Positions 43,719-62,404 of a stretch of DNA of 64,000 bases are shown here, piece after piece. Source of the DNA: a bacterium (GTDB taxonomy: Bacteria; Chloroflexota; Dormibacteria; Aeolococcales; Bog-877); assembly GCA_021785655.1 (NCBI GenBank), contig JAJYET010000005.1:1-64000 (forward strand). Reading direction: 5' to 3'. A program made the position numbers and the translations under genes. Each line of letters begins with the position of its first letter. The stretch's first letter is position 1. The notes beneath the pieces were generated by a model. The model did no database searches and was not told the origin of the DNA. It worked only from the letters and a program-made list of their open reading frames with translations.

Positions 43719-43814
43719 CTGCTCATCATGGCGGCCGGGGCCATTCTCCGGCTCGCCGGGGAGCCCAAGAGGTCCTGGGCCGCCTCGCGGCGAGATCGCT
43801 GCTATCCTCCTCCT

Positions 43815-43910
43815 GGGAGTGCATGGGTCCAGGTGGGCCCCTCGATCTTCAAAATCGATGGGGGGCGCCTCAGGCGTCCCCGGAGGGATCGTTCCCCTCG
43901 CCTCCCGCCA
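43815..43910 (+). tRNA. selC: Selenocysteine-type tRNA (UCA anticodon), possibly non-canonical or degenerate
   Basis: D-arm GGGTCC-AGGT-GGGCCC (6-bp stem, 4-nt loop), anticodon arm TCGAT-CTTCAAA-ATCGA (anticodon TCA), long G/C variable arm, T-stem GAGGG/CCCTC, GCCTCCC-G-CCA 3' end. Acceptor stem only 5 bp (GGGAG/CTCCC) and atypical T-loop ATCGTTC. Confidence 0.6.
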
Positions 43911-52746: not shown

Positions 52747-54138
52747 TCACCGCTCCCCCACCACCCGCACCGGGGGTCGATCCCGCAGTCGAGGCGCGGG
52801 CAGCCTGAGCCCCGACACCGCAGACACACCGCCTTCGCTCTCGGGCTCGGAGACCATCCGGGCAGGTCCGAACCCCACTGCCTGCCGCTGCACCTCGCCC
52901 TCGGGCCGCGTGCCCAGCCGCTCCGCCACGAACTCCGGGGTGATCCACACCCGCCGGGCCGGCGCGCCCTGGGCGATGGCCCGGTGAAGCAGCGACTCCA
53001 TGCGGGTCTCCACCGACCGCAGCCCGGCCTCACCCGAGGCGGCGTACCCAGTGACCACCAGGTCCAGCGCCTCCGCGCTCAACGGCACCACCCGCCGGGC
53101 GAGCCCGTAAGCGTCGAGCAGCCGGGGCCACAGGTGCGAGCCCGCCACCTCCACCCGCTCGGCCTTCGTCAGACCCTCCACCTCCACCACCTCGCAGCGG
53201 TCCAGCAGGGGCGCGGGAATCGGATCAAGGGAGTTGGCCGTCGCCACGAAGCTCATCCCCGCCATCGGGTAGGGGACGCCCACGTACCTGTCGGTCCAGG
53301 TGGTCGAGCCCAGCAGCTCCAGCATCCAGGCCGTGGGCGAGGCCCCGTGCCGGGACCACCCACCGCCCAGCTTGTCGATCTCGTCGAGGACCAGCAGCAG
53401 CCGGGACGTGCCCGCCCGCCGGATCGCCCGGATGATCGCCCCCGGCTCCGCCGAGCTCCACACCCGGTCGGCACCGGCGAGGTACACCTCGTCCATCGAG
53501 GCCATAGGGACTGACACCACCTCGCACGGGCGACCCAGGGCGTCCGCCATCGCACGCGCCAGGGTGGTCTTGCCAGTCCCCGGCGGGCCGACCAGGAGCA
53601 GGGGTCGGATGCGATGCTCGCCGCCGCCCTGCAGCTCCAGGTGCGCCTGCGCCGCCACGCGGTCGGCCAGGATGGCCTTCACCCCGGCGTGCCCGCCGTG
53701 GGCCGCGTCGAGCGCCCGCTGGGCCGCCAGGGCGGCAGGCTTGCGCTCTGCGGGGGGCGCGGTCCAGGGAAGCTCCGCCACCAGCCGCAGCCAGTTCCGC
53801 TGGTGCTCCGACCCGTCCTCGTCGGCCATCACTCGCCCAGCCACCGACTCCACCTCGGACCTCGCCGCTTCGGAGGCCTCCGCCACCGCCGACCGGGCCG
53901 CGGCCACCAGGTCGCCATCGAGGTTGGGTGAGCCCGGCCGGGCCCGCTCGGCCGCCGTCTGTCTCGCCGCCTCAATCGCGGCCTCGGCCTTCTCCTGCGC
54001 CTCGTCCTCTCTCGCCTCCGCCTCGGCCCGCACCGCCTCGGCCCGCAGCCGGACCGGGCAGTCCTCACGGGGGACCGTCGGATGCACCAGGCCACAGCTC
54101 GAGCACGGGCGCAGAGGATCGAAGTCAAAGCGAGACAC
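52747..54138 (-). CDS. Stand-alone Lon-type AAA+ ATPase without a visible S16 protease domain
   Basis: HAGVKAILADRVAAQAHL..PLLLVGPPGTGKTTLARAMADALGRPCEVVSVPMASMDEVYLAGADRVWSSAEPGAIIRAI; LLLVLDEIDKL; N-term CSSCG...C. Confidence 0.8.
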   Translation of the reverse strand: MSRFDFDPLRPCSSCGLVHPTVPREDCPVRLRAEAVRAEAEAREDEAQEKAEAAIEAARQTAAERARPGSPNLDGDLVAAARSAVAEASEAARSEVESVAGRVMADEDGSEHQRNWLRLVAELPWTAPPAERKPAALAAQRALDAAHGGHAGVKAILADRVAAQAHLELQGGGEHRIRPLLLVGPPGTGKTTLARAMADALGRPCEVVSVPMASMDEVYLAGADRVWSSAEPGAIIRAIRRAGTSRLLLVLDEIDKLGGGWSRHGASPTAWMLELLGSTTWTDRYVGVPYPMAGMSFVATANSLDPIPAPLLDRCEVVEVEGLTKAERVEVAGSHLWPRLLDAYGLARRVVPLSAEALDLVVTGYAASGEAGLRSVETRMESLLHRAIAQGAPARRVWITPEFVAERLGTRPEGEVQRQAVGFGPARMVSEPESEGGVSAVSGLRLPAPRLRDRPPVRVVGER

Positions 54139-54399
54139 TGAGCCACCTCCTGCCAGCCACCAGGGCGCGCCCACAGAGCGCATGCCTGTCCCCTGGGGGA
54201 CTGTGGTGGCGCTGGCCCATCGGTCGGGGCCGGCGACTTCTTGCAGTCTACCCCGGAGCCGGGGCGGCCAAATGCCCCACAACATGGACCATGAATCGTG
54301 AAGCGTGAAGCGAGGCTCGCCGGGGCGAAGGCCTCAGCCATCGCCTCGCAGCTGCGCCGATCAGATATCCCCGGCCGAGGCCAGGGGTAGCGTTGGGAC

Positions 54400-58494: not shown

Positions 58495-61400
58495 ATGTGG
58501 ACCGTCGCCGTGATCAAGGACCCCGCCTACTACCTCCGCTGCGTGGCCGACCGGGCCACCGCGCAGGAGCTGGGCCTGCGCCGCCTGGCCGAGGCCACCA
58601 TGGTCGCCTACGAGCTGGCGGACGGCACCACGCTGGAGGCGTCCGAGGTCCACGCCCTCCGCCGTCAGGTGAAGGTGGCCGGGCTCCGGCTGGCGGACGG
58701 CCGGGAGGTGGCGCTGGACCTGGTGGAGGTCTTGCGGGACGGTCGGCACGTCGCCGGGTACCGGTTGGCCGACAAGACCGTGGTCGAGAAAGAGGATGCC
58801 CAGCGCGTCACCCTGACCCGCAGGCGGCTGGCGGCCTACCGACTCGCCGACGGCACCACGCTGGCCAAGGGCGAGCTGCGGGCCATCACCGCCGGGGAGA
58901 CGCTGGCGGGGCTCACGGACGCCGAGGGACGGCCGGTCGAGGCGGCCATGGTGGCGATCCGCGACCAGATGAACGGCCGCATCCTCGGGTACTACTCGGA
59001 GCACGGCGAGGCCCCCGGCCAGTGGATCGGCAAGGGAGCGCTGGAGGACCTCGGACTGACAGGGCTGGTCTCGCTGGACGAGAACCGGCAGGCGTACGAG
59101 CGGCTGATGGCCGGGCTCCACCCGGTCACGGGCGAGCGGCTGACCCACGGCCAGCCCGGCGGGGAGCGGGTGTCGGGCTTCGACCACCTGGTCACGGTCC
59201 CCAAGTCGGTGTCCCTGCTCTGGGGCTTGACCACCGACCAGGCGGTCCGGGAGGCCATCGAGGCCGCCCACAAGGAGTCCATCACCGAGGCGCTGGGCTG
59301 GCTGGAGTCGCAAATCTCCGTGGCCCGCCGGGGGCACGCCAGTGGCGGAGAGAACGACAAGCACCCGGACACCATCCACCACGTCCCGACCACCGGAGTG
59401 ATCGGCGTCCGGTTCCAGCACCGGGCGACCCGGCCGGGCGAGGGCGACCCGTGCGGCGACCCGCACCTGCACACCCACGTCACCATCGCCAACCTCGCGC
59501 ATGGGCAGGACGGCCAGTGGAACGCGCTCGACGCCCAGCTGATGTACCCGCACCTGCGGACGGCCTCCTTCGTCGAGCAGGCGGCCTTCCGCCGGCTGGC
59601 CGTCCAGAAGCTCGCGGCCCTCGGGCACCACATCGAGTGGACACAGCCGGTGAACGGCCACGCGGAGATCAAGGGGTTGGAGCGCCGCGACTGGATCGAG
59701 GCCTTCTCCCGCCGCTCCGCCGAGGCCGACGCGGCGCTGGAGCGCAAGGAGCTGATCGAGGAGGTCGGCTCCGGCCCCAGCAAGGCTCGCGACCAGGCGG
59801 GCCACGCGACCCGCCGAGCCAAGGAGACCGGGCTGGCCACCAGCGAGCTTGTCGCCGACTGGCAGGCTCGGGCGGCGGAGATCGGGCTCGGGCCGGGGCA
59901 GGTGGAGGCGGCGCTCCGGCGGCAAGCGACCCCCGAGGCGGAGCCCGAGCTGACCCCCAAGCTGGCGACCCAACTCGCCCAGGACCTCACCGAGCAGCAG
60001 AACGTGTTCGGCCTCGGGGACGCCATCCAGGCGGTCGCGAACGCCGCCCGGCTGGGCATGACCGTTGCGCGGGCCGTGGAGATGGCCAAGGAACTGACCC
60101 ACGGCGCGACGGACCAGATCGTCGCCTTGAAGCAGACGGCGCGCACCGTGATCCGGCGGGACGACGGGCGCGTGGTCAAGGTGCGGCTCAACGACGAGAT
60201 GGCCGAGTGCTTCACCACCAAGGAGGTGATCCGGCTGGAGAGCCAGGTGATCACCATCGCCAAGGAGCGCAGGCTCGCCGGCGTGGGGCTGGCCCGGCCG
60301 GAGGCCCTCGCCGCCGCGCTGGCCGCGCATCCGGAGCTGGGCGAGGATCAGGTGGCGATGGTGACGGGCCTCTGCACCGACGGGGCCGGAGTCGCCATCG
60401 CGCTGTCCCCCGCCGGCCACGGCAAGACGACCGCGCTCAGGCCAGCGGCCCAGGCTTGGCAGGACAGCGGCTTCACCGTGCTCGCGACGGCGCAGATGGC
60501 CGCACGAGCCCACGATCTGGGAGAGGGAGTCGGGCTCGACCCCAAGCGGGCGATGACCATCGCCGCGCTCCGGCAGCGCGTGGAGGGGACGGACGATATG
60601 CCGGTTGGCACCCCGCTTCCTCAGGGCGTCGTCCTACTGGTGGACGAGGTGTCCGTGGTCGATCTGAGGGACCTCGCAGCGCTGGAGTGCCACGTGAGGG
60701 CCGCCGACGGCAAGCTGGTGCTGGTGGGCGATCCGCAGCAGCTCGGCTCCATCGGGCCCGGGGCTCCGCTGGTCGAGCTGCCCCAGGTCGCGCCGACCTA
60801 CGAGCTGGTGGAGAACCGGCGGCAGACGGCGACCGAGCGCGACGCCGACGGCAAGGAGATTCTCGGACCCGATGGGAAGCCGATCTACTGGGAGCGCTCG
60901 GCCATCGAGGGCTTGCGGCGGGGCGCGTGGGGCCTGGCCAATCCTGAGGAATACCAGAGGTGGGCGGCGGAGAAGGCGAGGGGGACGGGTGAGGACGCCC
61001 CGACGGCCAGTGGGTTGATCGGCTTCGCGCTCCAGGACTACGACCGCCACGGCCGCATCGTCTACGCCGAGGGGGAGAGCCGGGCCGCCAAGGCCGACCT
61101 CATAAAGCAGGCGGCTCAGGACTACCTGAGCGCGAAGGACAGCGGGCAGAGCGTCGCCCTGATGGCCCACACCCACAAGGACCGCCTGAGCCTCAACGCC
61201 GTCATCCGGTCGGAGCTCATCCAGCGGGGAGAGGTGGCGGCCGATGGCATGAAGGCCGGCGATCTGGAGGTCGCCGCAGGCGACACCCTGCAGGTGCTCA
61301 AGAACTCCCGCAAGCTCGGGCTCGACAACTCCGACCTGGTGCGCGTCGAGGGGATCGACAAGGAGAAGAAGATCGCCTCGGTCCGGCGTCCCGACGGGGA

Positions 61401-62016
61401 GCTGGTGGAGCTGAACCACGGGTATCTCGCCAAGTACGCCGCCCACGGGTACGCCGAGACGGTGAACAAGGCGCAGGGCACGACGGCCGACGTGGGGCTG
61501 GTGCTGGCCGACAGCTCCAGCCTCAGCTCCCAGTTCGGCCAGGTGGCGCTCACCCGGGGCCGGGAGGACAACCGGATCTACTTCGCCGGACCAAGGCCCG
61601 TGGACCCCGAGCACCACCTTCCTGAGGAACAGGCTCCCTCAGAGGACGACCAGTGGAAGCTCATCTTCGCCGGGCTCACCCGAGACCGGAGCAAGGAGCT
61701 GGCCAGCGAGGTGATCGCCGCCCTCGACCGGGACGACCGGCAGGCCGTGGAGAAGGCGCTGGCCGCCAGCGTCGAGGTCACCAGGGCGGCGGCCCAGGTG
61801 GAGAGAGACCGGCTGGCGGCCCAGGCGGTCAAGGCCGAGGGTGAGGCCCTCGCTCGGCGCGACCTGCAGGCCATCGAGGCGATGCAGGCCGAAGAGGCCG
61901 CCAAGACCTCCGAAGAGAGGGAGGCGGAGCGGAGGAGAGCCGACCACGAGGCCGACGAGCACCGCCAGCAGCACCAGTCGCACGGCATGCAGCGGACACG
62001 GGGGCCGCGACCCTGA
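58495..62016 (+). CDS. MobF (TraA/TrwC-type) conjugative relaxase-helicase with internal repeat insertion
   Basis: N-term DPAYYLRCVA tyrosines, FDHLVTVPKSVSLLWGL, DPHLHTHVTIANL metal His triad; helicase SPAGHGKTTALR, VVLLVDEVSVVD, VNKAQGTTADVGLVL, LTRGREDNRIYF. Confidence 0.93.
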   Translation: MWTVAVIKDPAYYLRCVADRATAQELGLRRLAEATMVAYELADGTTLEASEVHALRRQVKVAGLRLADGREVALDLVEVLRDGRHVAGYRLADKTVVEKEDAQRVTLTRRRLAAYRLADGTTLAKGELRAITAGETLAGLTDAEGRPVEAAMVAIRDQMNGRILGYYSEHGEAPGQWIGKGALEDLGLTGLVSLDENRQAYERLMAGLHPVTGERLTHGQPGGERVSGFDHLVTVPKSVSLLWGLTTDQAVREAIEAAHKESITEALGWLESQISVARRGHASGGENDKHPDTIHHVPTTGVIGVRFQHRATRPGEGDPCGDPHLHTHVTIANLAHGQDGQWNALDAQLMYPHLRTASFVEQAAFRRLAVQKLAALGHHIEWTQPVNGHAEIKGLERRDWIEAFSRRSAEADAALERKELIEEVGSGPSKARDQAGHATRRAKETGLATSELVADWQARAAEIGLGPGQVEAALRRQATPEAEPELTPKLATQLAQDLTEQQNVFGLGDAIQAVANAARLGMTVARAVEMAKELTHGATDQIVALKQTARTVIRRDDGRVVKVRLNDEMAECFTTKEVIRLESQVITIAKERRLAGVGLARPEALAAALAAHPELGEDQVAMVTGLCTDGAGVAIALSPAGHGKTTALRPAAQAWQDSGFTVLATAQMAARAHDLGEGVGLDPKRAMTIAALRQRVEGTDDMPVGTPLPQGVVLLVDEVSVVDLRDLAALECHVRAADGKLVLVGDPQQLGSIGPGAPLVELPQVAPTYELVENRRQTATERDADGKEILGPDGKPIYWERSAIEGLRRGAWGLANPEEYQRWAAEKARGTGEDAPTASGLIGFALQDYDRHGRIVYAEGESRAAKADLIKQAAQDYLSAKDSGQSVALMAHTHKDRLSLNAVIRSELIQRGEVAADGMKAGDLEVAAGDTLQVLKNSRKLGLDNSDLVRVEGIDKEKKIASVRRPDGELVELNHGYLAKYAAHGYAETVNKAQGTTADVGLVLADSSSLSSQFGQVALTRGREDNRIYFAGPRPVDPEHHLPEEQAPSEDDQWKLIFAGLTRDRSKELASEVIAALDRDDRQAVEKALAASVEVTRAAAQVERDRLAAQAVKAEGEALARRDLQAIEAMQAEEAAKTSEEREAERRRADHEADEHRQQHQSHGMQRTRGPRP

Positions 62017-62017
62017 G

Positions 62018-62404
62018 ATGGGCTCGCTATTCGCGCCGCTAGCCATCCTGGCCCTTGGGGCAGTCGCGGCCCTGGCCGGGGCTCGGAGGCCCTCGGGCCG
62101 CCGGCCACTGGTTCCGGCCCTCCCACGCAGGGACCTCGACCGCGAGCAGGCGGGCGATCCAGCCACTCCCGCGTTCGAGCTGGCCGTGCTGAGCCATCAC
62201 CCGGACCCCTTGGTGCGCCTCCAGGTGGCGCTGAATCCCAGCACCGACGGCTGGACCCGCGAGCGCCTCGACGCCGACGACGAGCTGGAAGTCCTCCGCT
62301 CCGGCTACGGGGAAGGGCGCGGGGCACGGGCCGCCAGCTCGGGCACCTGGCCGTGGTCGCTGCCCGGCGACCTCGACGCTTGGCGGCTGTCTTGGGCGGC
62401 CTGA
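62018..62404 (+). CDS. Small hypothetical protein with N-terminal TM
   Basis: ORF immediately after relaxase; LAVLSHHPDPLVRLQVALNPSTD. Confidence 0.5.
   Translation: MGSLFAPLAILALGAVAALAGARRPSGRRPLVPALPRRDLDREQAGDPATPAFELAVLSHHPDPLVRLQVALNPSTDGWTRERLDADDELEVLRSGYGEGRGARAASSGTWPWSLPGDLDAWRLSWAA

Follow-up and report, generated by a model that had tools for sequence, protein, structure and literature searches.

A tandem-repeat domain inserted between the two tyrosine pairs of a MobF relaxase from the Dormibacteria

The relaxase gene and its surroundings

The window, that is, the whole stretch of DNA analysed (64,000 nucleotides; positions 1 to 64,000 of contig JAJYET010000005.1, assembly GCA_021785655.1, from a bacterium of the lineage Chloroflexota; Dormibacteria; Aeolococcales; Bog-877), contains a gene (58495..62016, plus strand) that codes for a MobF relaxase-helicase of 1173 amino acids. 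This identity, proposed in the original prediction, was borne out by profile searches: residues 160-462 match the TrwC family PF08751 (E=6e-62, 210 bits against a cut-off of 25), and the NCBI MobF model NF041492 scores 172.6 bits (cut-off 100). The C-terminal part carries a RecD/TraI-type helicase ATPase domain (60337..60840, plus strand; AAA_30 at residues 615-782, E=2e-33). Two tyrosine pairs and a histidine triad of the HxxxDPxLHTH type are also present. Residues 1-19 (58495..58551, plus strand) comprise strand 1 and the first tyrosine pair, Y12/Y13, in the region of TrwC Y18/Y19; this segment is kept in two orthologues (L004 and L005, see below) and is similar in the insert-less relaxases L006/L007. 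The second pair, Y166/Y167 (58990..58995, plus strand), is equivalent to TrwC Y26/Y27 in a profile alignment to TrwC 1omh. The codons of the HUH histidines H309, H326, and H328 lie inside 59419..59478 (plus strand), and these residues occupy invariant alignment columns that were matched to TrwC FRHETSRERDPQLHTH. Judged by these motifs, the protein is an otherwise standard MobF relaxase with an intact HUH site and ordinary-looking catalysis.

Matching N-termini in two orthologues support the ATG at 58495 as the start codon, and a similar N-terminus is present in the insert-less sister relaxases (MLKVWPVMDIDYWLRQVAG...). A downstream start at M153 or M160, which would exclude the insert from the protein, was ruled out by this conservation of strand 1 in the orthologues and its resemblance in the insert-less sisters. 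Since the N-terminal tyrosine strand is separated from the remainder of the relaxase domain, the profile alignments start late, at position 29 of NF041492 and position 16 of PF08751. In the helicase part, about 58 further residues (residues ~784-842, about 60844-61020, plus strand; DADGKEILGPDGKPIYWE...) are absent from both orthologues. The source genome also encodes a second MobF relaxase (contig C44, 14016-14912, minus strand), which belongs to a different clade and has no insert.

Upstream of the relaxase gene lies an AAA ATPase gene (52747-54285, minus strand) whose product contains a Lon-like module matching TIGR00763 at positions 284-563 only; it has no recognised Lon protease domain, and a CSSCG...C segment precedes the AAA module. 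A gene of this kind, 59-68% identical, occurs close to the relaxase in each of the five elements of the group whose flanks were compared. A small ORF follows the relaxase gene (62018-62404, plus strand) and has counterpart ORFs in L080, L081, and L032/L083, with 62-72% identity along 69-96 residues. Just past the window, downstream, a TraG/TraD-type coupling protein is encoded (67332-68921 of contig C40, minus strand; L077:5332-6921). Its presence on the relaxase contig is consistent with a conjugative or mobilizable element; the contig also carries typical chromosomal genes. ARAGORN called a tRNA-Sec at 43814-43909 (plus strand) within an opposite-strand histidine kinase ORF, and this call may be spurious.

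A repeat-containing insert between the tyrosine pairs

The classical tyrosine motif of MobF relaxases is YY-X(5-6)-YY (PMC9868005); in the relaxase of the window the motif reads YY-X152-YY, with 152 residues between Y12/Y13 and Y166/Y167. The extra portion comprises residues 20-159 (58552..58971, plus strand), about 140 amino acids. The original prediction had placed an extra segment of about 130 residues in the catalytic domain, which is real although slightly larger, and had stated that canonical TrwC/TraI proteins lack it, which was corroborated by comparing the spacers and models of other MobF proteins. Spacers are about 4-27 residues long in the other MobF relaxases compared, including those of viral contigs and seven named plasmids, so that the classical spacing of five or six residues does not define the family, and the insert is absent from the PF08751 and NF041492 models. 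The protein shares with TrwC (R388) and TraI (F, pKM101) the HUH fold, the order tyrosine pair, tyrosine pair, histidine triad, and the fused RecD-like helicase, but differs from them in having 152 residues with a repeat domain where they have five or six. It is also close to insert-less MobF relaxases that members of the same family carry on syntenic elements (L006/L007; genomes G012 and G005), which are sisters to it (support 100/100), have a similar N-terminal strand and a nearby Lon-like AAA gene, but show a short DYW-to-LQYY spacer and no repeats. Elements of the insert-less sisters are related to that of the window, with the Lon-like AAA gene, ParA, and other genes in common.

The insert is a tandem repeat with a period of 25-26 residues (best self-comparison offsets 76, 25, 26, and 51), and its top repeat score was reached by none of 1000 shuffles in each of the three orthologues. 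Clear units start at residues 37, 62, 87, and 113; at 138, in exact register, a fifth, degenerate one follows. From self-comparison, the AlphaFold2 model, and the unit register, the units were delimited on the plus strand as unit 1 (residues 35-58, 58597..58668), unit 2 (residues 59-84, 58669..58746), unit 3 (residues 85-110, 58747..58824), and unit 4 (residues 111-135, 58825..58899). The fifth (residues 136-158, 58900..58968) scores 3.2, against 36-40 for units 1-4, and its secondary-structure order matches at low pLDDT. The repetition proposed in the original prediction therefore stood, with a count of five units, the last degenerate, in place of four. Orthologous units resemble each other more closely (0.62-0.83 for the window against L004) than do the units of a single protein (about 0.3-0.5), which indicates an old, stable repeat array.

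Two orthologues contain the insert: one in JAKABB010000096.1 (L004/L031), 76% identical, and one in JAJYPP010000002.1 (L005/L032), 53% identical, both from other genera of the family to which the source bacterium belongs. Since the insert is present in three separate genome assemblies, an assembly artefact was ruled out. Both tyrosine pairs are invariant in these three relaxases. The inserts themselves are 72% (L004) and 47% (L005) identical to that of the window and measure 139-140 residues in all three despite about 50% divergence, length and unit number being unchanged across the three genera. Insert and core agree in GC3 (0.957 and 0.958), and in the insert dN is lower than dS (0.24 against 0.37 for window and L004; 0.49 against 1.02 for window and L005), with dS probably underestimated because of the extreme GC3. 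The continuous GC3 and the low dN indicate that the insert is translated and under purifying selection. It changes faster than the catalytic core (47-74% identity compared with 58-76%) and about as fast as the helicase part. By these results, the domain insertion is genuine, conserved, and specific to one lineage, within an enzyme class that is already known.

Regarding the nature of the repeat, the original prediction had called it DUF3892-like, from a superficial strand-DG-strand resemblance, and this part did not hold. Pfam hmmscan of the three orthologous inserts gave nothing up to E=10, PF13031 had no match in the source genome at E<=10, and hhalign against an alignment of eight DUF3892 sequences gave probabilities of 0.2% (insert) and 0.9% (unit alignment). 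The DG turn between strands is alike, but the collected DUF3892 sequences are built around another conserved core and show no evident repetition of their own. It is therefore most improbable that the insert is an array of DUF3892 repeats. No family in Pfam, NCBIfam, or PDB matched the repeat above cut-off, and matches in PHROGs were at chance level only. Residues 1-172 also gave sub-threshold Pfam matches to aspartyl protease families (E 4e-4 and 2e-3), which did not reappear with the insert or its orthologues and were discarded.

Predicted fold and distribution of the insert

AlphaFold2 was run on residues 1-466 with seven alignment rows, three of which cover the insert, so that this part of the model rests on three sequences; mean pLDDT was 74.5, reaching about 79-92 over residues 41-130. 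Each unit is predicted to consist of a strand, a turn, a short strand, one helical turn, and a strand, and the strands that close units 1 and 3 extend into those that open units 2 and 4 (residues 52-66 and 102-117). At the level of prediction, the four units thus have a common strand order, in agreement with the equivalent structural repeats expected originally. Invariant arginine pairs (R56/R57 and R110/R111) are located on the two long predicted strands. Low-confidence regions surround the tyrosines (residues 14-22 and 149-170), and a single-sequence run of the insert yielded no usable model (pLDDT 42).

In Foldseek searches of the model against PDB, TrwC/TraI structures came first (top match TrwC 1omh, E 1.6e-17, target TM 0.75), and the first non-relaxase matches were all KDM4A double Tudor domains (E 0.0098-0.1, prob 0.7-0.97). 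The predicted insert resembles the hybrid double Tudor of KDM4A/JMJD2A (2gfa, 2qqr) in having long strands common to two lobes. Nevertheless, the target-normalised TM is about 0.3 at an rmsd of about 12 A, below a threshold TM of 0.5, identity is ~10%, and the insert is poor in aromatics, which makes a methyl-lysine cage unlikely; homology is unsupported. No Tudor family in Pfam matched the inserts of the three orthologues up to E=10, a PDB sequence search with the insert profile gave no match, and a search of a viral structure library returned nothing meaningful. The four units of about 25 residues are predicted to form a compact beta module akin to a tandem Tudor/SH3-like domain, the likeness in this model being a topological hint rather than a fold assignment.

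The insert was found in 3 of 50 genomes of the order. Among 399 genomes of the phylum, a sample that leaves out the third insert-bearing genome (G017), 15 had MobF matches (29 in all), and the insert occurred only in the window and in the orthologue of genome G009. Searches with tblastn using residues 1-162 gave only chance matches in 72,556 plasmids and 50,697 phage records, and the insert was absent from the viral contigs searched. In genomes G051 and G309 the insert profile had weak matches (E about 4e-4 to 5e-4), which run across a stop codon in both cases. The relaxase of G011 was considered as a fourth case, its Pfam match also beginning at profile position 16, but it merely has an extended spacer. 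In a tree of 35 relaxase cores with the insert removed, the three insert-bearers form one clade (99/97), sister to the insert-less L041/L042 (100/100). Given the insert-less outgroups, a single gain on the branch leading to the three bearers is the simplest history. No such insertion in a MobF or HUH enzyme was described in the titles and abstract openings searched, which come mostly from openly accessible journals.

Possible role of the insert

Our preferred reading, to which we give a probability of about 0.5, is that one lineage gained an all-beta repeat domain in its MobF relaxase and that this domain serves for docking next to the active site. It lies in the naturally variable loop leading from helix 1, with the first tyrosine pair, to the second pair. 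In pKM101 TraI, the loop that follows helix 1 touches the thumb, the part closing on DNA, at its base (PMC9868005), and a folded domain in such a loop is well positioned for additional contacts at the active site. Anchored at the active-site entrance near the equivalent of this thumb-closing site, the insert, probably a module without chemistry of its own, may offer a docking surface that keeps the relaxase at DNA flanking oriT or at a coupling or relaxosome partner. A DNA- or partner-binding module, as originally suggested, is plausible; the near-zero net charge of the insert (22 K/R, 22 D/E) makes it no obvious DNA binder, although the invariant arginine pairs lie on its two long predicted strands.

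This neutral charge fits protein binding, and a narrower version is that the insert docks a protein encoded by the element, such as the Lon-like AAA ATPase, whose gene accompanies the relaxase in all elements compared, or the coupling protein encoded downstream on the same contig. However, the Lon-like AAA gene also lies beside insert-less relaxases (L080, L081), so that co-occurrence does not mark it as an insert-specific partner, and we consider docking of such a protein rather unlikely. Passive expansion, in which a tolerant surface loop was lengthened through tandem duplication without any specific role, would agree with the variable loop length of MobF relaxases and with an insert evolving faster than the catalytic core, but it appears doubtful in view of the constant length and unit number over three genera, the confident predicted fold, and a dN below dS at a rate similar to that of the helicase part.

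The insert might also uncouple the tyrosine pairs, leaving one pair catalytic and the enzyme a functional single-tyrosine relaxase, as the 152 residues that part Y12/Y13 from Y166/Y167 could suggest. In TrwC the tyrosines differ in role, Y18 having been proposed as the DNA carrier into the recipient and Y26 as completing strand transfer (PMC10359608). Against this, neither pair varies among the three insert-bearers. Inserted domains often have their two ends near each other, and therefore the geometry of the tyrosines in the active site may be unaltered. We regard a single-tyrosine enzyme as improbable, more so than the two preceding alternatives.

Under the preferred docking reading, a folded domain would stand between two tyrosines to which DNA may become attached. 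A more specific proposal, which we offer only tentatively, is that a previously undescribed tandem Tudor-like beta-repeat domain, grafted between the catalytic tyrosines, governs the choice of tyrosine or the closure of the thumb on oriT. If this were true, the insert would be an allosteric or targeting module in an HUH active-site loop.

The two tyrosines of MobF relaxases have different tasks in conjugation and are usually separated by a very short loop. By conserving both pairs around a folded domain, this natural enzyme offers a ready test of how far the two-tyrosine spacing can be stretched, and of whether the inter-tyrosine loop can carry regulatory or targeting modules. In addition, the three insert sequences provide a seed for a protein repeat for which Pfam, NCBIfam, and PDB gave nothing above cut-off.
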